Counted from the stretch's first letter, positions 5,895 to 18,868 are shown. The stretch: DNA of 64,000 nt from Anaerolineaceae bacterium oral taxon 439 (GCA_001717545.1 CP017039.1:434001-498000); one strand, 5' to 3'. Made by a program: numbers and translations. Notes: generated by a model from the letters alone, not told the origin.

Positions 5895-6117
5895 CGTCCT
5901 TCGCGTTCGATTTTCAGGAAAGCGTTCCTTACTGTGCGTTTCAGAATTTCTTTAATTTCCGGACGATCCGGCGTGACGGATCCTCAAAATGGGTCGCAAA
6001 GTGGTAAGATTCTATCCGATAGACAGGATCCGATCGATCATTCAGGCGGCGATCGCGGGACGGGAGCCGTTCCGCGGCTGGAAGCGGCCTCCGCGGAGAG
6101 AGAGAAATACAGGCAGC

Positions 6118-9100
6118 ATGTTCAATAAAATCAAGACAGCTTTGGGCTTAGACCCCATCCAGAAGAAACTCGACGATTTAATCGGAAAGGTTCCGGCGAT
6201 TAACGCGCTGGAGGAAGCGTTCGAAAGGCTGAGCGACGAAGAGCTCAGCGCCAAAACGGCGGAATTCCGTTCGCGTCTCGCGGACGGGGAAACGCTCGAC
6301 GAGCTGCTCCCCGAGGCGTTCGCGACGATCCGCGAAACGTCGAAGCGGGTCCTCGGGATGCGCCCCTACGACGTGCAGCTGATCGGCGGTATGGCGCTGC
6401 ACGATAAATCGATCGCCGAAATGCGGACCGGCGAGGGGAAAACGCTCTCCGCGACGCTTCCGGTCTACCTGAACGCGCTGGCGGGAAAAGGGGTCCACCT
6501 GATTACCGTTAACGATTATCTGGCGCGGCGCGACGCGCGCTGGATGGCGCCTGTTTATAACTTCCTGAACCTTTCCGTCGGCGTTTTGCAGATGGCGGCG
6601 CGGACGGAGAACGGGAAGAAGGCGTTCCTGGTCGACCTGACGGTTTCGTCGGTCAAGGAAGATCAGGACCGGCTGCGCATGGTCCCGCGGCGCGAAGCGT
6701 ACCTCGCCGATATTACGTATGGGACAAACGCTGAATTCGGGTTCGATTACCTTCGCGATAATATGACGATGAACTACGACGACCGCGTCCAGCGCGGCCA
6801 CGCTTTCGCGCTGATCGACGAGGTCGACAACGTCCTGATCGACGAGGCGCGGACGCCGCTGATTATCTCCGGGCCGGCCTCCGACGACGTTGAAATGTAT
6901 CATCGGATGGCGGCGATTATCCGGGAGCTGACCCCCGACGAATATGAGGTCAGCGAAAAGGATCATCAGGTCTATATCAACGACGCCGGGCTGGATCATG
7001 TCGAGGCGCTGCTGGGAATGACGCTCCGCGATCCGGCGCGGCCAGAGGAAATTACGCTGTGTCAGGAAGCGATCATGGGCTATATCGACCAGGCGCTGAA
7101 GGCTGAATTCCTGTATCATCGCAATAAAGAGTATCTCGTTCAGGGCGGGAAAGTCGTTATCGTCGACAGCTTTACCGGCCGGCTCATGCCCGGGCGGCGC
7201 TGGTCGAACGGGCTGCATCAGGCGATAGAAGCCAAGGAAGGCGTGAAAGTCGAGCCCGAAAACGTGACCTACGCGACGATCACGCTTCAGAATTATTACC
7301 GCATGTACGATAAAATCTGCGGAATGACCGGGACGGCGCTGACCGAAAAAGAGGAATTTTATAAAATATACGGGCTGGACGTGATTCCCGTTCCGACGAA
7401 CCTTGAATTCAGCGCGCGTCAGAAGAATTCCGAGCTGATCGAGCGGACGGCCAAAGACGAAACCGGCTTCAAATATACCTTCTACGCGCTGCGTTCCGAT
7501 CCGGAGACGCCGGTATATTTCAAGCGAAAGGATTACGAGGACGTTATTTATCAGAGCGAAGAGGCGAAATTCCGCGCGATAACGGTTGAGATTCTGCGCA
7601 ACTATATTCTCGGCCGTCCGCAGCTGATCGGGACGGCCTCGGTCGAGCATTCCGAATATCTGGCGTCGCGGCTGAAACCGGAGCCGCTGCGCCGGCTGAT
7701 CCAGCTGAACATGCTACGGCGGGTATGGATGATCAGGAATAAGATCGAATATGTGGAGTCGCCGATTAAGCAGTTCGACCCCTTCCGCAAGGCGATCGAA
7801 ACGATCGGCGCGAACGATATCCGGCCGTTCGCGCGCGAGCTGGGCGTCTCGCTGAACCCGGACGATCCGGAAAATAAGGCGTTTCTCCTTGCCGAATTCG
7901 AGCTGACCGAGAGCGAGTACCCGCGCTTCCTGGCGACGGTCGAAAGCGGTATCCGGCCGCAGGTCCTCAACGCGCGCAAGCATGACGAAGAAGGCATGAT
8001 TATCGCGCAGGCGGGCGCGTTCGGCGCCGTGACAATCGCGACGAACATGGCGGGGCGGGGCGTCGATATCAAGCTCGGCGGCGAGCTGGACGAGGCGACG
8101 CTGCGCGACGTGAACCGCGTTCTCGTTCATAGCGGCGTCGATCCGTATAACCTGACCAACGATGGGCGCTACGAGGAATTGAGCCGGTTGGACGAAGCCG
8201 ATTTCGGCGTTTACGAGGAGTCGGTCGCGCGCTTCCGGACTTATATTGAGAACATGCATAAGGTTCGCGAGCTGGGCGGGCTCCACGTGATCGGATCGGA
8301 ACGGCATGAGTCGCGGCGGATCGATAATCAGCTCCGCGGCCGCGCCGCGCGCCAGGGCGACCCGGGATCGTCGCGCTTCTTCCTCTCGCTTCAGGACGAA
8401 ATCGTCCGTCTTTTCGGCGGCGCGCAGGTGGAGAACCTGCTCAATCGCGTAAATCTTCTGGACGAGAGCGTCCCGATGGAGCATGGCATGTTCTCCCGGC
8501 TCATCGAGCAGTCGCAGGAACGCGTCGAAGGGTCCAACTTCGACGTCCGGAAGCATACGCTGGAGTATGACGACGTCCTCAACAGTCAGCGGAAACGGAT
8601 CTACGATCAGCGCGATCAGGCGTTCCTGAAAAAGGATCTCAGCGAAGATATTTACGATATTCTCGAAACCGATCTGGACGCGCGGCTCGAGAAATATGGC
8701 GAAGAAGAAAACTGGCAGCTGGCCGCTTATTTCGACTCGGTTCAGCCGCCTTTCGAAATCGACGGGAATTTCCTCCCGGCCTTCACGACGCGGCTCCTGA
8801 TTAACGAGCTGTGCCGGACGATCGCGTTTGACGGCTCCGAGGCGGACGTTCCTGTCACGCCGGAGCGCGAGGAAGCGCGCCGTGAAGCGATCCTTGAGGA
8901 GCTTCTGGCGCTGAGCCGGAAAGCGTTCGAGGCGGAAAATAAAATCGGCCTGGATCAGGCGGAGGACCTGATCGCGAACGCGCGCGCCGGTTTCGACGCG
9001 CAGTCAGACGAACGCCGCGCTAATTTCGAGTTGTTTGCCGAAGCGCTGGCGGACCGGCTGAAGAGCCGCGCCGAGAGCGAACGGGACGGCGAGATTCAAA

Positions 9101-10320
9101 CTCCGCTGCGCGGCCAGGACCTGCTCGCGGAGGCGGGGAGCTTCGCGCGGATCAACTTCCGCCTTTCTTCCGAGGATCAGCGCCTGCTGACAGATGGGGA
9201 CGAAACGGTTCTCGATAAACTTCGCGGGCAGATCGAATCGACGTTATTCACGGTTTTCACCGCCCGGACGCATCAGGCTTTTTTGAAGCGGCTGGGCGAC
9301 GATTACGTCCCGCCGGCGGAAACCCCCGAAAACTGGGAAGATTTCGGCGACGCGGTGATGAACGCCGTATCAGAAGGCTTCCTGAAGCGCGCCGATCGGC
9401 TTTTCGGGGAGCAGGATCAAATCCGCGCCGACCTGAACGCCGCGCTGCGGTCGATCCCGGGTGAAGCGCTGAGGTATGGGCTGAACGACAGGCAGTGGAA
9501 CGCGCTGCTGCGCGCCGCGGGGCAGGGAAAGCGGATCGCTTTCGACGCTAAAACGCATCGGAAAACGTCGGTCGCCTATACGCGCCTGAACTTTTTGTAC
9601 TACAGCGGGACGCTTCTCGACGGAAAATCGCGGCAGGAAATCCGCGATCTCGTCTGGGACCATTACCTGACGACGCTCGAACGGCTCCGCGCCGTCTTCG
9701 GCGAAATTGACTGGAAACGGCTCCGGAACCATTCGATCCCGCTGGATCAGCTCCGCGCGGAAACGCAGGCGCAGCTCAAAACGCTTCTCGGGGCGGACGT
9801 TTACGGCGGAATCGCCGCCCTCCCGCCGGCCGAGATTGACGAGGACTGCGTCGAAAAAATCAAGGATCATTCAGGCGGCCGGATCCAGAACGAAATCTGC
9901 CGGATGGTTATCCTGCGCGCGATTACCGATCAATGGGTCCATTACCTGACCGAGATTGAATCGCTCCGTGTCCGGATTTCGATGGAAGCCTACGCACAGC
10001 GGAATCCGCTCGTCGTGTATAAGACGCGGGCGGCGGAGCTGTTCAGCGAGCTGCTGAAAAATATCCGCCGCGCGGTTGTTGAACGGATCTTTATTACCGC
10101 GCCGACGCTGGGAATGCTGACCGCCAGCGAACGTGTCAGCCTGAACGAGCTCCGAAAGGATCAGGAGCGCGCGCTGCCGGCGGAGGAAGACCTGACGAAG
10201 GCTGAAGCGGACGAAGCGGAGGCCCGTCCGGAACCGGGCGGAAAACCGGAGGGCGGCGACGCGGAGGAGAAGCCGTCAACGGCAGCGCTGAAAAAGAAAA
10301 AGAAGAAGATGAAACGATGA
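6118..10320 (+). CDS. secA: Protein translocase ATPase SecA, greatly enlarged
   Basis: SecA drives preproteins through SecYEG with ATP. The ATG at 6118 gives a standard N-terminus (MFNKIKTALGLDPIQ) and a 1400-residue protein; most SecA proteins have 800-950. Walker A RTGEGKT has its Lys at 108, as in E. coli; the DEAD motif LIDEVD is at 232-237, about 25 residues late because of an insertion in NBD1. NBD2 carries about 95 extra residues between ASVEHSEYLASRL and NARKHDEEG. Motifs NMAGRGVDIKLGG and LRGRAARQGDPGSS follow; the usual GRAGRQGD reads RAARQGD. The helical scaffold starts at YDDVLN (about 816) but its second half (ITDQWVHYL) only comes at about 1265, implying some 300 inserted residues in the helical-wing region. 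The C-terminal Cys-rich zinc motif is absent and replaced by an acidic linker and a Lys-rich tail. It overlaps holB by four bases. Confidence 0.95.
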   Translation: MFNKIKTALGLDPIQKKLDDLIGKVPAINALEEAFERLSDEELSAKTAEFRSRLADGETLDELLPEAFATIRETSKRVLGMRPYDVQLIGGMALHDKSIAEMRTGEGKTLSATLPVYLNALAGKGVHLITVNDYLARRDARWMAPVYNFLNLSVGVLQMAARTENGKKAFLVDLTVSSVKEDQDRLRMVPRREAYLADITYGTNAEFGFDYLRDNMTMNYDDRVQRGHAFALIDEVDNVLIDEARTPLIISGPASDDVEMYHRMAAIIRELTPDEYEVSEKDHQVYINDAGLDHVEALLGMTLRDPARPEEITLCQEAIMGYIDQALKAEFLYHRNKEYLVQGGKVVIVDSFTGRLMPGRRWSNGLHQAIEAKEGVKVEPENVTYATITLQNYYRMYDKICGMTGTALTEKEEFYKIYGLDVIPVPTNLEFSARQKNSELIERTAKDETGFKYTFYALRSDPETPVYFKRKDYEDVIYQSEEAKFRAITVEILRNYILGRPQLIGTASVEHSEYLASRLKPEPLRRLIQLNMLRRVWMIRNKIEYVESPIKQFDPFRKAIETIGANDIRPFARELGVSLNPDDPENKAFLLAEFELTESEYPRFLATVESGIRPQVLNARKHDEEGMIIAQAGAFGAVTIATNMAGRGVDIKLGGELDEATLRDVNRVLVHSGVDPYNLTNDGRYEELSRLDEADFGVYEESVARFRTYIENMHKVRELGGLHVIGSERHESRRIDNQLRGRAARQGDPGSSRFFLSLQDEIVRLFGGAQVENLLNRVNLLDESVPMEHGMFSRLIEQSQERVEGSNFDVRKHTLEYDDVLNSQRKRIYDQRDQAFLKKDLSEDIYDILETDLDARLEKYGEEENWQLAAYFDSVQPPFEIDGNFLPAFTTRLLINELCRTIAFDGSEADVPVTPEREEARREAILEELLALSRKAFEAENKIGLDQAEDLIANARAGFDAQSDERRANFELFAEALADRLKSRAESERDGEIQTPLRGQDLLAEAGSFARINFRLSSEDQRLLTDGDETVLDKLRGQIESTLFTVFTARTHQAFLKRLGDDYVPPAETPENWEDFGDAVMNAVSEGFLKRADRLFGEQDQIRADLNAALRSIPGEALRYGLNDRQWNALLRAAGQGKRIAFDAKTHRKTSVAYTRLNFLYYSGTLLDGKSRQEIRDLVWDHYLTTLERLRAVFGEIDWKRLRNHSIPLDQLRAETQAQLKTLLGADVYGGIAALPPAEIDEDCVEKIKDHSGGRIQNEICRMVILRAITDQWVHYLTEIESLRVRISMEAYAQRNPLVVYKTRAAELFSELLKNIRRAVVERIFITAPTLGMLTASERVSLNELRKDQERALPAEEDLTKAEADEAEARPEPGGKPEGGDAEEKPSTAALKKKKKKMKR

Positions 10321-12446: not shown

Positions 12447-13928
12447 TTATTTCAGGCTGCGGACGCGCTCGCCGCTGACGACGCCGATCCCGATCGGAAC
12501 GCCGTTCCGATCCGTCAGGAACAGGTTCGTTCCCTTGGTTCGGACGCGATCGCCGCGTTGGAGCTCCTGTCCGCCCAGCCAGCGCTCGACTTCCGGCGGA
12601 TCGAGCGCGATTTTTTCCGCGCCGATCTGTCCCCAGACATGCGTCGTCCAGTCGAAGTCGGCGACCCAGCCGACCGATCGCCGGGACGCGATCCGCATCC
12701 CCATCGATTTCGCCGGCAGCTCGGCAAATTCGCTCAGGACCCGGTTCGGAACCGCCCAGACTTCTTCGTCCCGAAAAACCAGCGTGCCTTCCTTCGCCGC
12801 GACGTCGGCGGCCGCGTCATATCCGAACAGGTCCTCCAACGCCGCCGCGGTCTCGCGTTCTTCCGCCGCCGTTGGGAGGCGGCAGCCGCTTTTTGTAAAC
12901 GGACGGAACGCGGGCGGAGACGAAGCGTCCGGCGCGGATTCCTTTTTTATCAGCAGCGCGGCGAAAAAACCCGCCGTTTTAAAGCGATGCGGCCAGAGAC
13001 GGACGGCGCGTTCCGTTCTTTGATCGAGCGTCGTACTGCCGAACGCGCTGATTCCCGGCGCGGGGCGCGGAAGACGGCGATGAACGTCAAGAATATCGAT
13101 CGTCCTTCCAAACCGTTTGAGCGCGCTGTCGACGACGGCCTCGTCCTCCAGCGGGGACAGCGTACAGGTAGAATAAACGAGCTGCCCTCCCGGACGAAGC
13201 GCGTTCAGCGCCGCCGTCAGGAGCCGCGACTGACGTTCCGCCAGTGCCGCTTCTTCCCGTTCGCTGATCGGACGCATCGGATGCGAATCGATCGAGATCA
13301 GGCTTTGCATGCTGCATGGGGCGTCAAGCAGGATAAAATCGAACCGTTCGGGGAACCATTCGCCGATCCAGTCGCCCGAAAAATTCGTAACCAGCTGGTT
13401 CCTGGCTCCGTAATTCTTTAAGACTTTCCGGAGCGCCCCGATCCGTCCCGCGCTGGAATCGTTCGCGAGAATCAGCCCGCGGTCGCCGCTGGCGCTGACG
13501 AGGTGGGTCGTTTTTCCGCCCGGCGACGCCGCCATGTCCAGGATCAGCGGCTTTCCCGCGAAGACGGAATCCTCGACGAGCGAAACGGGGAGCATCGACG
13601 CGCTGTCCATGATATAAAACGCTCCTGCGCGATGTTCCACGGTCGTTCCCGGCGCAACCGCCGCCTCTGTTAACCGATAGCCGGAGGCGCAGAATTCAAC
13701 CGGGGCCGCGGTCCAGCCATAGCGCGCGGATAGATTGTCGATCGTCCCGAACGCGCTCTTCGCGGGGTTCAGCCGGATCGCGGGCGGAAGCGTCAGCGTC
13801 CGAGCCGCTTCACTCGCCGCCGCCCGCTCGTCTTCCGGGATCAGCCGCTCAAAGCGCGCGAGCATCGTTTCGGAAAGCGGCTCAGTCGGCGCGGCGCGGC
13901 GGGACGATCGTTTCGATTTTTCAGCCAT
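12447..13928 (-). CDS. RsmF-like 16S rRNA (cytosine-C5) methyltransferase
   Basis: 493 residues, close to E. coli RsmF (YebU, 479). A NOL1/NOP2/Sun methyltransferase core has SAM loop DMAASPGGKT (131-140), motif IV LDAPCS with Cys205 and motif VI YSTCTLSP with Cys255; these are the two catalytic cysteines of m5C RNA methyltransferases. After an Ala/Pro-rich linker, the C-terminal third (FLTDRNGVPIGIGVVSGER) resembles the PUA-like domain of RsmF. RsmF makes m5C1407 in helix 44 of 16S rRNA; the same target is likely but inferred. It starts 12 bases after the stop of a G1405-type rRNA methyltransferase and has no clear ribosome-binding site of its own, indicating coupling. Confidence 0.8.
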   Translation of the reverse strand: MAEKSKRSSRRAAPTEPLSETMLARFERLIPEDERAAASEAARTLTLPPAIRLNPAKSAFGTIDNLSARYGWTAAPVEFCASGYRLTEAAVAPGTTVEHRAGAFYIMDSASMLPVSLVEDSVFAGKPLILDMAASPGGKTTHLVSASGDRGLILANDSSAGRIGALRKVLKNYGARNQLVTNFSGDWIGEWFPERFDFILLDAPCSMQSLISIDSHPMRPISEREEAALAERQSRLLTAALNALRPGGQLVYSTCTLSPLEDEAVVDSALKRFGRTIDILDVHRRLPRPAPGISAFGSTTLDQRTERAVRLWPHRFKTAGFFAALLIKKESAPDASSPPAFRPFTKSGCRLPTAAEERETAAALEDLFGYDAAADVAAKEGTLVFRDEEVWAVPNRVLSEFAELPAKSMGMRIASRRSVGWVADFDWTTHVWGQIGAEKIALDPPEVERWLGGQELQRGDRVRTKGTNLFLTDRNGVPIGIGVVSGERVRSLK

Positions 13929-13940
13929 GCGGATCGCGGG

Positions 13941-14765
13941 TTATCGTTTCAGGACGTAAACAATTTCGTTTGGGTAACGGAGCTTCGTCGAATCCCAGCC
14001 GGACGCGCTCAGGATTGCGTCGTACTCAGTCTCGAAATCGACGCTGGAGGCCGCGCTTCCGGAACGTTTCGCTTTCGCGGCGGGAGCTGGAAACGAGACG
14101 ACCGCGAACGGGCTGCGGATTTCGTCGAAGACGCGCCGTCCCGCTCCCGTTTCGGAGCGCTCTAAAACCGGAATGATCTTCTGGATCAGGGTTAAATCAG
14201 CGTCGATATCCGGGGCCCCGTTCAGCAGGTTCCCCTGCAGCGCGGTTCCGGAAAGATCCAGGAACTGGAAAAAATCGTTGAGAAAATCGACGAGATCGAG
14301 CGGAAGATCGACCGCGGTGTAGTGAAGATCGCGGCCGTTGGGAATAAACGAAACGGCCGCGATCGGATTCAGGCCGCAGCCCAAATCCAGGATCGAACGA
14401 ATCGGCGGGAGGCCGCTGAAAATTTCCTGATAATAGCGGCGGATAAACGGAAGCCGCTCTTTCGACGAAGCGTGGCGGCGGAGGAAATCGGCGGCGTAAA
14501 GCTGCCGTTCCTCGACCGGGCGATCATGAATCGCGTGGTCGCCTAACTGGATCGCGAGGTCGCGATACGAGTCTTCCCCGACGCGGAACGCGTTGACGGC
14601 CTGATGAATGGCATGTTTAACCGATTTAAGGATTTCCTTTTCGTCCGAGCTGGCTTTCGCCGCGTTGGAGACGAGCCGCTCGATGAAGCTGAGATCGAGC
14701 TCGCGATAATTCTTCGTATGGGTAAGCCGCTCGACGAGTTCGGAGAAGTCCTGCGTGGGTTCCAT
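13941..14765 (-). CDS. 16S rRNA (guanine-N7) methyltransferase homologue, Arm/Rmt (FmrO) family
   Basis: 274 residues; the ATG at 14765 is preferred over one 21 bases upstream because AAGGA lies directly ahead. Family landmarks of the aminoglycoside-resistance methyltransferases are clear: a helical N-terminal domain, RHASSKERLPFI (98-108; HxSTRERL in ArmA/RmtB), SAM motif ILDLGCGLNP (125-134), LTLIQKIIPVLE (191-202), VVSFP (222-226) and a terminal YPNEIVYVLKR. Characterised members methylate G1405 at N7 in the ribosomal A site and block 4,6-disubstituted deoxystreptamine aminoglycosides. The Gly-rich stretch usually after VVSFP (SLGGRxKGM) is replaced by an Ala/Lys/Ser-rich segment, so activity or target may differ. 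It forms an operon with the downstream RsmF-like gene. No mobile-element signs surround it. Confidence 0.75.
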   Translation of the reverse strand: MEPTQDFSELVERLTHTKNYRELDLSFIERLVSNAAKASSDEKEILKSVKHAIHQAVNAFRVGEDSYRDLAIQLGDHAIHDRPVEERQLYAADFLRRHASSKERLPFIRRYYQEIFSGLPPIRSILDLGCGLNPIAAVSFIPNGRDLHYTAVDLPLDLVDFLNDFFQFLDLSGTALQGNLLNGAPDIDADLTLIQKIIPVLERSETGAGRRVFDEIRSPFAVVSFPAPAAKAKRSGSAASSVDFETEYDAILSASGWDSTKLRYPNEIVYVLKR

Positions 14766-14805
14766 TTTTTCCTTTCTTAGCAGCAATATTTTTTAACAGC
14801 AAAGA

Positions 14806-14822
14806 GCCCGCGGCGGGCGGGC
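14806..14822 (-). terminator. GC-rich hairpin after the thrC-thrB-LysM operon
   Basis: GCCCG-CGG-CGGGC forms a short GC-rich stem. On the minus strand it lies about 150 bases beyond the LysM gene stop and before the rRNA-methyltransferase gene, with only a weak T-rich stretch after it. It is a plausible but weak terminator. The rest of the 14787-14964 gap shows nothing else recognisable. Confidence 0.35.
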
Positions 14823-14964
14823 CATGAATCGTATGGCCTGAAATAATTCGGGCGATAATAAAGGCGGTTCCGCCGGTTCGTCCGCGGAGGTTTCGGCGGT
14901 TCTGCCGTTTTCTGATTTTTTCAGGATGCTGATAGCGGAGGTTGGTTTTTCCATGTCCGTTTTT

Positions 14965-15588
14965 CTATGGAATTGAAAGCGTCATTCCCGGAACGACCTG
15001 ATCCGCGGAGGTCAGTCCATTCTGAACCGCGATCGCTTCGGGGGTAACGTCGCCGTAAACGCAGGCGATACTGTAAAGCGTCTCGCCCGCGACGACCGGG
15101 TGCTGCGCCGGATGCGGCGCGGAAACGCGCTCGCCGTACCGGTCGCTTAGCCAATGGCTGTTCTGCGGCAGGATCAGGTTCTTTCCCGTCCCGATCAGCG
15201 CTTCGTTTTCATACGTGATTCCGTTCATTGAATACAGCTTGATCCAGTCCAGGTCATACCGGCGCGCGATGCATTTCGCCGTTTCGCCTTCCTGAAGCGT
15301 ATAGAAACCTGGCGAAGCGGCGCCTGATCCGAGCGTGGGGCTGGGGGCGGACGTTTCGCTTTCCGGCTCGTTCGCGGCTGGAAGAAGCGCGGGAGGAATG
15401 ACGCCCGGTTCCGGGGCGACGTTATAGCGGATCCAGACCTCTTTTGTCTCCTCAAACATGACCAACCGTTCGGTATTCGGCGTTGCGTTGGAAAGGGATT
15501 GGATTGGATCGGGGGTTGGCGCCGCTCCGCAGCCGCTCCCGATGAGCGCCAATCCGATCAGGAGACATCTCAGCTTCCGTGTCTTCAT
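14965..15588 (-). CDS. Lipoprotein with two LysM domains
   Basis: 207 residues. The signal peptide MKTRKLRCLLIGLALIGSGC ends in a lipobox (LIGSGC), so the protein should be anchored to the membrane by a lipidated Cys20. After a Pro/Ser-rich linker come two LysM modules: GFYTLQEGETAKCIARRYDL (about residues 97-145) and VVAGETLYSIACVYGDV (about 160-207). LysM binds N-acetylglucosamine polymers such as peptidoglycan. The start codon overlaps the stop of thrB by four bases, so it is translated from the threonine-biosynthesis transcript although it has no evident metabolic role. Confidence 0.85.
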   Translation of the reverse strand: MKTRKLRCLLIGLALIGSGCGAAPTPDPIQSLSNATPNTERLVMFEETKEVWIRYNVAPEPGVIPPALLPAANEPESETSAPSPTLGSGAASPGFYTLQEGETAKCIARRYDLDWIKLYSMNGITYENEALIGTGKNLILPQNSHWLSDRYGERVSAPHPAQHPVVAGETLYSIACVYGDVTPEAIAVQNGLTSADQVVPGMTLSIP

Positions 15589-16514
15589 TTCGTCTCCTTG
15601 TCCGCAACGATCGCCGCGCCTTTGGCTGTTGGACTTAGAATAAACGTCTCGGCTTCTGTTCCGGTTTTGGTGCAGGCCTCCGCCATCGCTTCGAGAACCG
15701 GCTCGATCGGCTGCATACTGAACGCGATCAGGGATGGCCCCGCTCCCGACACGGCGCAGCCGGCCGCTCCGGCCTTTTTCGCGGCGGCGAGGATCTCGCG
15801 TCCTCCCGGGATCAGCGCCAGGCGGTACGGCTGGTGAAGCCTGTCGCGCATCGCGAATTCAAGCGTCGTTTCGTCGCCGCCGCAAAGCGCGGACAGCAGG
15901 AACGGAATCCTCTGGAGATTGAAAACGGCGTCGGCGAGCTCGACCCGCTTCGGGAGCGCGTTCCGCGCGTCCTCCGTCAGGATCGTCATCTTCGGCTTCA
16001 ATATCGCGATTTTCCAGTTCTCGATCGGGTATGAAACGATCAATGTCCCTTCGCCTTCGCCGCCCACCGCGCCGACCGTCAGTCCGCCTATCAGCGCCGC
16101 GGCGATATTATCCGGATGACCTTCGAGGCGGGTCCCAGGATCGACGAGTTCCGGCTGAGGAAGATGAATCCCCATCGCTTCGTTTGCCGCGACCAGTCCG
16201 CAGGCGATCGCCGCCGCGCTCGACCCCAGCCCGGACGCGGGCGGGATCCGGTTCCGGAGATGGAGCCGGACGGCGGAAGGCGCGGTTTTCCCGTTCTCTT
16301 CGCAAAGCAGCCTGAAACTTTTCAGGACCAGGTTCTCCTCTGGCGACGCGCTCAATGGAACCGCGTACCCCTCCTGCGTCACGGTCGTTTCCGAAACGTC
16401 GAACGAAAACTCGACCTCGTTCCAGAGATCGAGCGCCAGCCCGAAGGCGTCGAAGCCGGGGCCTAAATTCGCCGTTGTCGCCGGCGCGCGGACGGTAAAG
16501 GCCCTTCTGTCCAC
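15585..16514 (-). CDS. thrB: Homoserine kinase
   Basis: 309 residues, typical of ThrB. It phosphorylates homoserine with ATP, the penultimate step of threonine synthesis, in the cytoplasm. GHMP-kinase signatures are present: PATTANLGPGFDAFGLAL at the N-terminus, the ATP loop PPASGLGSSAAA (91-102), and the C-terminal GCAVSGAGPSLIAF. It follows thrC by two bases and overlaps the LysM lipoprotein gene by four, so thrC-thrB-lysM is one operon on the minus strand. Confidence 0.93.
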   Translation of the reverse strand: MDRRAFTVRAPATTANLGPGFDAFGLALDLWNEVEFSFDVSETTVTQEGYAVPLSASPEENLVLKSFRLLCEENGKTAPSAVRLHLRNRIPPASGLGSSAAAIACGLVAANEAMGIHLPQPELVDPGTRLEGHPDNIAAALIGGLTVGAVGGEGEGTLIVSYPIENWKIAILKPKMTILTEDARNALPKRVELADAVFNLQRIPFLLSALCGGDETTLEFAMRDRLHQPYRLALIPGGREILAAAKKAGAAGCAVSGAGPSLIAFSMQPIEPVLEAMAEACTKTGTEAETFILSPTAKGAAIVADKETK

Positions 16515-16516
16515 GG

Positions 16517-17575
16517 TCAGAGTCCCTTCATGATAAATTGGTAAATCCGATCGAAGTCAACCGGGAGCCGAGTCGGCGCGGGGGCGCGCTGCGTAATAAT
16601 ATCGGGGTCCTTCATGCCGTGCCCCGTGCAGATTACGACGACGCGTTTCCCGCTGACGTTCAGCGATCCGGATTCAAGCTGCGCCCTGAGCCCGGCTAAT
16701 CCGGCGGCGGACGCGGGTTCGACCCAGATCCCGGCGGCGGCGAGCGCCTTCTGTGCGGCGAGAATCTGGTCGTCGCTGACGGCGATAATCTTCCCGCCGG
16801 ATTCTTCGGCGGCGGCGAGCGCCTGCTCTCCGCGGGCGGGGTTCCCGATCCGGATCGCGGTCGCGATCGTTTCCGGATTCTCGACGACGTGGCCTAAAAC
16901 GAGCGGAGCGGCCCCGGCCGCCTGAACGCCCAGGATTTCCGGGAGTCCGGTTTTCCGTTCCGCGTTGTACTGACGGAAACCGGCCCAGTATGCGGTAATG
17001 TTTCCTGCGTTCCCGACCGGAAGGCAGAGTAAATCCGGAGCGCCCTCCAGCGTGTCGCAGATCTCAAACGCTGATGATTTCTGGCCTTCGATCCGATACG
17101 GGTTCAGCGAATTGACGAGTTCAATATCGCTTTTCTGGCTGATTTCAACGACGAACGAAAGCGCGTCGTCGAACGAGCCGGGAATTTGAATAATTTCAGC
17201 GCCGTAAGCGAGCGCGCCGGCGAGCTTTCCGGTCGCGACCTTCCCGTCGGGGATCATGACGATTGCGCGCAGCCCGGCGCGGTTCGCGTAAGCGGCCGCC
17301 GACGCGGACGTATTTCCCGTCGAGGCGCAGATCACCGTCTTTTTCCCATTCGCTTTCGCCATCGTCAGCGCGACCGTCATACCGCGGTCCTTGAACGATC
17401 CGGTCGGGTTCATCCCGTCGAATTTAACGAAAAGCTCGAAGCCGCCGCCGAGACGCGCGGCGATTTCAGGAACGGGAATCAGCGGCGTATCGCCCTCCAG
17501 CAGCGTTACCGGCTCGATCTGCGTTGGAAGGTCTAAATATTTTCGATAACGATGAATGATTCCGCGGTAGGTCAT
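16517..17575 (-). CDS. thrC: Threonine synthase
   Basis: 352 residues, the short bacterial type of PLP-dependent threonine synthase, which converts O-phosphohomoserine to threonine. The PLP lysine is Lys62 in NPTGSFKDRGM; the phosphate-binding turn is LPVGNAGNITAYW, and EPASAAGLAGL near the C-terminus is also characteristic. It is the first gene of the thrC-thrB-lysM operon. Upstream (17576-17714) a TAGAAT-like -10 sequence is present on the minus strand but no attenuator was recognised. Confidence 0.93.
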   Translation of the reverse strand: MTYRGIIHRYRKYLDLPTQIEPVTLLEGDTPLIPVPEIAARLGGGFELFVKFDGMNPTGSFKDRGMTVALTMAKANGKKTVICASTGNTSASAAAYANRAGLRAIVMIPDGKVATGKLAGALAYGAEIIQIPGSFDDALSFVVEISQKSDIELVNSLNPYRIEGQKSSAFEICDTLEGAPDLLCLPVGNAGNITAYWAGFRQYNAERKTGLPEILGVQAAGAAPLVLGHVVENPETIATAIRIGNPARGEQALAAAEESGGKIIAVSDDQILAAQKALAAAGIWVEPASAAGLAGLRAQLESGSLNVSGKRVVVICTGHGMKDPDIITQRAPAPTRLPVDFDRIYQFIMKGL

Positions 17576-17714: not shown

Positions 17715-18575
17715 TCATGAATCTTCGGCGCGGGCGTCGGCCCTGCTGGCGACGTCCTCAATCAGTCTTGAAAGGTCAACCGCGTTTTTGGGGGTGATAA
17801 CCGGTTTCCCCGTTTCTTTCTCCAGCGTTTCTTTCGCTACCTTCGCTACGTTGCCGCCGCGTTTCGCGACCTGAATATGTTCCTCGATTTTTTCCGGATG
17901 ATCCGCGTTCGTGATATCTTTCGTCGCGGCCTCTGCAAGCATGTTCAAAATCAACTCTGTGGTCGACATATTGTCCCGCAGATTTTCTTTTTTCAGGTTT
18001 TTGAATTCTTTATACTCTCTCGTTGTCATTCCACTCCAGGCTCTCGATATTTCGTTTGTCAGGATTGCGTATTCTTTGCCTTCTTTTACGCCGTGATCCT
18101 GCCATGCGTCGGTCAGCTCTTTCCGGACCTGAATCGCCTGGAGCCGCTGATTGATCCACTCCCGGGAATAACCTTTTTCGAGATATGTCTGCAAAGCCCG
18201 TTCAATCGTTATCTCCGGATCGATGATTTCGTCGATGCGTTCTTTCCCGACCTCCGCCAGCCACATTTTGAATGGTTCCGCTTTCGGCGAGGGAATGGAT
18301 TGGATGATTCGAAAGATCCCTTGCATGTCCGCGACGTCGGTACGATACAGCTTTCCGTCTTTACGTGATTTCAGTTTCAGTTGGCTACAATTTGTAGCCG
18401 ACTCATTCCCTTCTTTTTTCAGGCGCGTTTTCAGGACGCTCCAATATTTCCTTGGGTTAGCGCTTTCGGTTAATATTTCAATAATATCAACGACGCTGAA
18501 AAACCATTCCTCTTTTTCCCGGTCCCAGACTGAACGGATGCTCTTGCCTTCAAAGTGTTTAATTTCGTTATCCAT
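17715..18575 (-). CDS. BRO-family antirepressor / DinD-like protein
   Basis: 286 residues. The ATG at 18575 (MDNEIKHFEG) has GGGAGG upstream and is preferred to a start 87 bases earlier. The N-terminal part (about 10-115) is a BRO-N DNA-binding domain (VWDREKEEWFFSVVDIIEIL, ATNCSQLKLKSRDG-like loop). The C-terminal half resembles the DinD/phage-antirepressor family (EISRAWSGMTTREYKEFKNL, LRDNMSTTELILNMLAEA, AKRGGNVAKVAKETLEKETG). Such proteins are usually encoded in prophages or other mobile islands, where they counteract repressors; no phage gene is adjacent here, so it is an orphan. A perfect 17-base palindrome lies inside the gene at 18383-18399. Confidence 0.8.
   Translation of the reverse strand: MDNEIKHFEGKSIRSVWDREKEEWFFSVVDIIEILTESANPRKYWSVLKTRLKKEGNESATNCSQLKLKSRKDGKLYRTDVADMQGIFRIIQSIPSPKAEPFKMWLAEVGKERIDEIIDPEITIERALQTYLEKGYSREWINQRLQAIQVRKELTDAWQDHGVKEGKEYAILTNEISRAWSGMTTREYKEFKNLKKENLRDNMSTTELILNMLAEAATKDITNADHPEKIEEHIQVAKRGGNVAKVAKETLEKETGKPVITPKNAVDLSRLIEDVASRADARAEDS
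18383..18399. repeat. Perfect palindrome GGCTACAA-T-TTGTAGCC within the BRO-type gene
   Basis: Eight-base arms around a single T. It coincides with the codons for the conserved ATNCSQ stretch of the protein, so it may be a by-product of coding or an internal binding site for the protein itself. Confidence 0.5.
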
Positions 18576-18868
18576 CTGACTGCCTCCCTTTTTTTTGTAT
18601 GGATTGTTTCCTGCCAGACGTATCAGGTCCGAAGAGTTTTCGACGCCGGTTGGGAACGTCATCCCTCCGATCGATTCATGATTTGCCGCTGCGGATTGGG
18701 GCAGGGTTTGCGGGTTCTGCCGTGCTGTCGGTTAATTTTACAGTATTTTTATCCATGCCGCGCCGGGTCATCAGCCGGCGGCCGCGTTTGAGCGCAGTCC
18801 GGTTGAACGCGGTATGATTGATCTGACGGCAGGGACCTGGCGCGATTATCTTTCAAGGAAAATGATTC

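Follow-up and report, generated by a model that had tools for sequence, protein, structure and literature searches.

The window, meaning the whole 64,000-nucleotide stretch of Anaerolineaceae bacterium oral taxon 439 that was analyzed (GCA_001717545.1, CP017039.1:434001-498000), lies within a single 2,945,494-base contig. The initial annotation had placed two methyltransferase genes here, separated by 12 bases, and the open reading frames were found at exactly these coordinates on the minus strand. The features of the locus are listed below, counted from the first letter of the window; TGT2 and FmrO-B are genes that occupy the indicated places in related genomes.

12447..13928, minus strand: RsmF-like (NOL1/NOP2/sun) m5C methyltransferase gene, 493 aa, ATG start, assigned from profiles, PDB matches and the orthologues of relatives
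13929..13940, minus strand: 12-base gap between the FmrO and RsmF-like genes, the place of FmrO-B in relatives
13941..14765, minus strand: FmrO/Arm/Rmt-family methyltransferase gene, 274 aa, a diverged clade A orthologue, assigned from profiles, AlphaFold/Foldseek, tree and residue table
14766..14964, minus strand: 199 bases between the LysM and FmrO genes, the position of TGT2 in relatives (gap to the in-frame TTG start, 178)
14965-15588, minus strand: LysM-domain lipoprotein-like gene (context)
15585-16514, minus strand: thrB (context)
16517-17575, minus strand: thrC (context)

The gene at 13941..14765 begins with ATG, has a plausible ribosome-binding site (AAGAAAGGAAAAA) ahead of it, and is the only FmrO gene in the host genome. 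Its 274-residue product carries the three landmarks from which the initial annotation had recognized the family, RHASSKERL, ILDLGCGLNP and VVSFP, and both profile searches and structure comparison confirmed that assignment. The Pfam FmrO profile (PF07091) matches with 116.5 bits (cut-off 27; E 1.7e-33) over positions 3-255 of its 255, and the generic NCBIfam Rmt model matches with E 4e-43; the score on the latter, 147.6 bits, is below the equivalog cut-off of 250, as it is for every FmrO protein tested from relatives (161-221 bits). All Rmt sub-models match as well, those for RmtB to RmtH more weakly than the generic one. In a sequence search of the PDB, Sgm was the best match (E 9e-26), followed by RmtF, RmtC, RmtB and ArmA. 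The AlphaFold model of the protein (39 window and locus sequences) has a mean pLDDT of 90 and a pTM of 0.88, and the first 16 PDB matches returned by Foldseek comprise Sgm, Rmt and ArmA structures only, with Sgm (TM-score 0.84/0.88), RmtC, RmtB and RmtF fitting best. The protein shares its fold and SAM site with the plasmid enzymes ArmA and RmtB-RmtH, to which it is about 22-25% identical by this comparison. The SAM-site residues D127, G131, N133, P134 and D153 are retained, as are the core residues H98, E103, R104, K196, E202, P226 and E267; in comparison with ArmA, RmtB, RmtC, RmtF and RmtH, the motifs D-x-G/A-C-G-L-N-P and H-x-S-S/T-x-E-R and the core K/E/P residues are all present. Together with the tree described below, these data show a predicted methyltransferase of the FmrO/Arm/Rmt fold that is orthologous to an old Chloroflexota FmrO clade, clade A.

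The downstream gene encodes the only PF01189 (RsmB/F family) protein of the host genome, and the close pairing with an RsmF-family gene described in the initial annotation was borne out by the 12-base gap and the domain matches. The protein matches PF01189 with 123 bits, passes the cut-off of the RsmF N-domain PF17125 by a small amount (36.3 against 34), and contains both catalytic cysteines, in DAPCS and STCTL; its best PDB match is YebU/RsmF (E 2e-49). The N-terminal domain and the two cysteines are shared with RsmF/YebU, which makes m5C1407, and with Thermus RsmF. It differs from these enzymes in its weakly matched C-terminal part (PF21150 and TruB-C_2 at E 0.02-0.07, under their cut-offs), in its co-inheritance with FmrO, and in scoring 242 bits on the RsmF equivalog model, for which the cut-off is 588. 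Because of this last value, we only infer that the enzyme would methylate C1407.

Upstream of the pair, the order thrC-thrB-LysM is the same in six genus-mates, and genus-mates with a full operon have the same three genes upstream; this shared context marks vertical inheritance of the locus. No mobile-element genes were found among the immediate neighbors searched. A chromosomal origin, as the initial annotation had proposed, is therefore well founded on the 2.95 Mb contig, the synteny within the genus and these neighbors. The host genome contains neither TGT2 nor FmrO-B, and no remnant of either was found in the window, in the intergenic region 14766..14964 or in the 12-base gap. Two further genes of the window are of separate interest. 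The plus-strand frame at 5989-10320, SecA-like by sequence reading, encodes 1443 aa with a lysine-rich C-terminus and exceeds the usual SecA length. The minus-strand gene at 17715-18662 (315 aa) weakly resembles DNA damage-inducible protein D at its C-terminus; its GC3 of 0.56, against 0.70-0.77 in its neighbors, makes it possibly horizontally acquired.

The relatives place this pair in a larger arrangement. We searched 61 related genomes (G000-G060), 37 of them from the same family (NCBI family Anaerolineaceae); here and in all further genome searches, each species was represented by one genome, in many cases a draft assembly. The FmrO family occurs in 33 of the 37 family genomes, mostly as two adjacent copies, within an operon of the order TGT2 > FmrO-A > FmrO-B > RsmF. 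Its genes mostly overlap by 4-8 bases, which suggests translational coupling; neighbor genes were delimited by simple longest-ORF logic, so that misassigned starts make some gaps and overlaps inexact. The RsmF orthologue lies directly 3' of FmrO-B in most relatives. Where the operon is split, as in a few genera, one part holds TGT2 and FmrO-A and the other FmrO-B and RsmF. RsmF orthologues (E <= 3e-84) are present in exactly the 33 family genomes that carry FmrO, and the family's remaining four genomes, two of them 96% and 99% complete, lack FmrO, RsmF and TGT2 alike. Co-inheritance of all four genes rules out a chance adjacency of the window genes. As judged from gene order and orthology, the window pair is a reduced remnant of the TGT2 > FmrO-A > FmrO-B > RsmF operon conserved in the family. 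One of the two proposals of the initial annotation, an intrinsic decoding-site operon, is supported, more by the relatives than by the window, where the pair is incomplete through loss of TGT2 and FmrO-B.

By their tree and residues, the FmrO proteins form two old paralogue clades. The 39 members of clade B group with a support of 1.0. The window protein falls within its genus group in clade A (support 0.978), which is also joined by the actinomycete enzyme Sgm (0.955), and the plasmid-borne Arm/Rmt enzymes cluster by themselves with weak support (0.77). On this topology, the ancestral reservoir of the resistance family that the initial annotation had also suggested is no more than a possibility. 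Residues invariant in Arm/Rmt are retained in clade A. In clade B the SAM site is preserved, but the K-x-x-P-C-L-E of clade A mostly reads K-E-x-x-R-x-E and the glycine position of K-G-M is a gap. FmrO-B therefore likely acts on another target or as a helper.

The Arm/Rmt enzymes are known as acquired, mostly plasmid-borne enzymes, and rRNA methylation serves self-protection in aminoglycoside-producing actinomycetes (PMC9311965). The window gene could be an acquired aminoglycoside-resistance determinant that became fixed on the chromosome, and its membership of the Arm/Rmt superfamily and the position of the self-resistance enzyme Sgm in clade A would be in keeping with this. We consider it highly improbable, given that the orthologues in the 33 of 37 family genomes share the same locus and neighbors, that the protein forms one vertical clade with its genus-mates, that no mobile-element gene lies beside it, and that it is only about 22-28% identical to the plasmid enzymes. 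Synteny, distribution and phylogeny contradict a mobile resistance gene. The system probably represents intrinsic decoding-site modification and not acquired resistance. Its nearest solved relatives by sequence and fold, the Sgm/FmrO enzymes, confer G1405 self-resistance in aminoglycoside-producing actinomycetes; the window gene differs in standing outside an antibiotic-producer setting and in an operon with RsmF, joined in relatives by TGT2 and another FmrO gene.

The window copy of FmrO-A has diverged unusually. It is 32-37% identical to the proteins of genus-mates, and RsmF in the same comparison is 46-53% identical; in other genus pairs at a similar RsmF distance, FmrO-A identity is about 45-49%. 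Among nearly invariant positions, 11 of 20 are changed. The loop S-L-x-G-x-x-K/V-G-M that follows (V/I)SFP is kept by Sgm, ArmA, the Rmt enzymes and the compared clade A relatives, including class members without TGT2. In the window protein it is replaced by AAKAKRSGS (residues 229-237; sequence PAPAAKAKRSGS), a replacement that the initial annotation had noticed and that proved peculiar to this protein among those aligned. Residues 231-240 are the least confident part of the AlphaFold model (mean pLDDT 51). Met-245 of RmtC, which lies within the S-L-x-G-x-x-K-G-M loop, has reportedly been implicated in gripping the flipped G1405; we assign a role to the lost loop from its conservation. The closest genus-mates of the set (L039-L042; G004-G006 and G013) show the reverse of the window genome, with FmrO-A about 91% and RsmF about 78% identical over seven pairs.

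Such changes could mean that the window FmrO-A has lost catalysis, either decaying or acting purely in RNA binding, and that the RsmF-like gene alone modifies rRNA. The faster divergence (35% identity with genus-mates, where 45-49% would be expected), the 11 changed positions, the loss of the loop that clade A shares with Sgm and Arm/Rmt, and the lost operon partners all point in this direction. The open frame, with its normal codon-position GC and start site, the retained SAM-site and core residues and the confident SAM-methyltransferase fold predicted by AlphaFold speak against it, and we regard the loss of catalysis as quite unlikely. Pseudogene decay in particular is unlikely in view of the frame, its codon-position GC and the SAM site. 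With the SAM site and core intact and the frame open, the gene is probably still used; with TGT2, FmrO-B and the conserved loop gone, its activity is probably reduced or changed. We thus regard it as probably an intact, constrained gene of altered activity. The initial annotation had described a G1405 enzyme, of which the family membership stands and continued methylation of G1405 is weakened: since the otherwise conserved loop is missing, we find it somewhat doubtful that the window protein still makes m7G1405. For FmrO-A of the relatives, the same product is fairly likely.

The first gene of the relatives' operon, TGT2, is a second tRNA-guanine-transglycosylase paralogue. It scores about 300 bits on PF01702, against about 500 for canonical Tgt, and 281-293 bits on the Q_tRNA_tgt equivalog model, whose cut-off is 306.75. 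Canonical Tgt is encoded elsewhere in almost all genomes that carry TGT2. All 48 TGT2 sequences form one clade (0.98), apart from the canonical Tgt of their lineage and from Z. mobilis Tgt. Full-length homology to bacterial Tgt (2ash, E 2e-61) extends to the nucleophile D280, to D102, to the guanine contacts D156, Q203, G229 and G230 and to the zinc ligands, all retained in at least 97% of the 48 (Z. mobilis numbering). TGT2 differs from bacterial Tgt in its separate clade, its linkage to rRNA methyltransferases and an altered pocket, with V45, L231, A232, V233, G234, E235 and M260 changed in all or nearly all sequences. The first five are replaced by D, W, P, L and D, nearly without exception, and E235 mostly by G or S. 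We read TGT2 as a putative working transglycosylase for another base or another RNA, and its gene neighborhood points to rRNA as a candidate substrate.

A convincing QueC was found solely in G020 (132 bits) among G000-G060, the other listed matches being short and weak (20-30 bits). A simple model in which TGT2 inserts preQ1 into rRNA thus lacks support, and the near-absence of QueC implies that the base used by TGT2 would be salvaged or a different one. Queuosine in this order, in which canonical Tgt is present nearly everywhere, probably derives from base salvage. One genome, G045 (91% complete; locus L061, G045:C180), has TGT2 and gave no hit for canonical Tgt; TGT2 may be the only transglycosylase there, unless the assembly has missed the canonical one.

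Beyond the family, FmrO was found in 106 and TGT2 in 70 of 396 sampled genomes of the class. All 70 TGT2 genomes contain FmrO (Fisher p 2.9e-51, a value that ignores the relatedness of the genomes), and in 55 of them FmrO lies <=400 bp downstream of TGT2. The other 36 FmrO genomes of the class have no TGT2, which is therefore dispensable for FmrO to persist. TGT2 and FmrO are paired in about a dozen families, and the named loci, found by alignment of TGT2-specific segments, extend this pairing to Ktedonobacteria, Armatimonadota (Chthonomonas) and one Poribacteria MAG; a scan of genome contigs with the window protein alone gave no matches, probably because the patterns of this diverged copy are too specific. 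Cultured carriers are Leptolinea, Levilinea, Ornatilinea, Bellilinea and Dictyobacter. Among 79 named TGT2 loci, RsmI lies directly upstream in 22, an RsmF orthologue within 3.5 kb downstream in 35, and RsmE, on either strand, no more than about 5.5 kb downstream in 23; the names RsmI and RsmE come from reading the cluster sequences, aided for RsmI by a profile match in the host genome. RsmI also accompanies TGT2-FmrO in Armatimonadota and the Poribacteria MAG. In known bacteria, RsmI (C1402), RsmF (C1407) and RsmE (U1498) modify bases near G1405, and Arm/Rmt enzymes interfere with RsmF or RsmI in E. coli (PMC12406665).

We consider it likely that an intrinsic operon for modifying the 16S decoding center was inherited vertically and that the two window genes are its remnant. 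In the relatives, FmrO-A of clade A, with the residues invariant in Arm/Rmt, would make m7G1405, the RsmF-like enzyme would make m5C at or near C1407, FmrO-B would hit another target or assist, and TGT2 would exchange a base in the same rRNA region. The operon may serve to tune decoding or the maturation of the subunit, and aminoglycoside insensitivity would be a by-product. In the window organism, TGT2 and FmrO-B would be gone and the remaining FmrO-A would act without the conserved loop. The host 16S gene has the usual helix 44 nucleotides G1405, U1406, C1407 and A1408, which permit modification and prove little about it, this target sequence being nearly universal. A mutated target site was considered and rejected: the host and the 19 other genomes whose 16S gene is complete all have a normal helix 44.

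The part played by TGT2 is the most tentative element, and we lean slightly away from its acting on the same rRNA. The fuller version of the proposal, which we hold with similar reserve, makes the ancestral operon a dedicated decoding-center system in which TGT2 would swap a 16S base or remove a methylated guanine and FmrO-A and FmrO-B would differ in specificity, together with RsmF and often RsmI. One possibility is that TGT2 strips 7-methylguanine by transglycosylation and so reverses FmrO. If the fuller version is true, base exchange by TGT2 would be the first such chemistry in rRNA, and the window organism would show what remains once the transglycosylase and FmrO-B are lost.

An ancestral operon acting on tRNA would account for TGT2 more conventionally. 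TGT2 would then modify another position or base, FmrO-A and FmrO-B would be tRNA methyltransferases, and the adjacent rRNA-modifier genes would reflect the clustering of translation genes. To our knowledge, all RNA-acting TGTs characterized so far act on tRNA, and TGT2 retains their catalytic aspartates and zinc site. However, the neighbors are specifically the helix 44 modifiers RsmI, RsmF and RsmE, characterized members of the FmrO family act on 30S subunits, and canonical Tgt is already encoded elsewhere in nearly all these genomes. We judge a tRNA operon unlikely and retain the decoding-center reading.

The occurrence of FmrO throughout a lineage, on the chromosome and in one operon with RsmF and a transglycosylase paralogue, points to a possible housekeeping role of G1405 modification and to possibly older roots of this resistance family beyond antibiotic production. 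It raises the testable questions of whether the decoding sites of these lineages are constitutively modified and insensitive to aminoglycosides and whether transglycosylases act on rRNA. It also carries a warning for annotation, in that FmrO matches in such genomes do not equate to acquired resistance. Our literature search, mostly of openly accessible journal papers, returned no report of the FmrO/Arm/Rmt family in Chloroflexota/Anaerolineae or of a transglycosylase acting on rRNA; given this coverage, novelty is only weakly evidenced.

Several loci depart from the common arrangement. In Brevefilum-like Anaerolineaceae (L184-L197 and L044), the RsmI gene before TGT2 encodes a divergent second paralogue with EEF or EER for EDTR; in Chthonomonas, Thermoflexus and Roseilinea, the RsmI before TGT2 resembles canonical RsmI. 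A Synechococcaceae MAG (L232) has TGT2 without an adjoining FmrO. Genus g171 of family f52 (for example L152, L156 and L157) keeps FmrO-A and has no TGT2, genus-wide, and several of its loci encode a conserved protein of about 160-170 aa directly upstream of FmrO.
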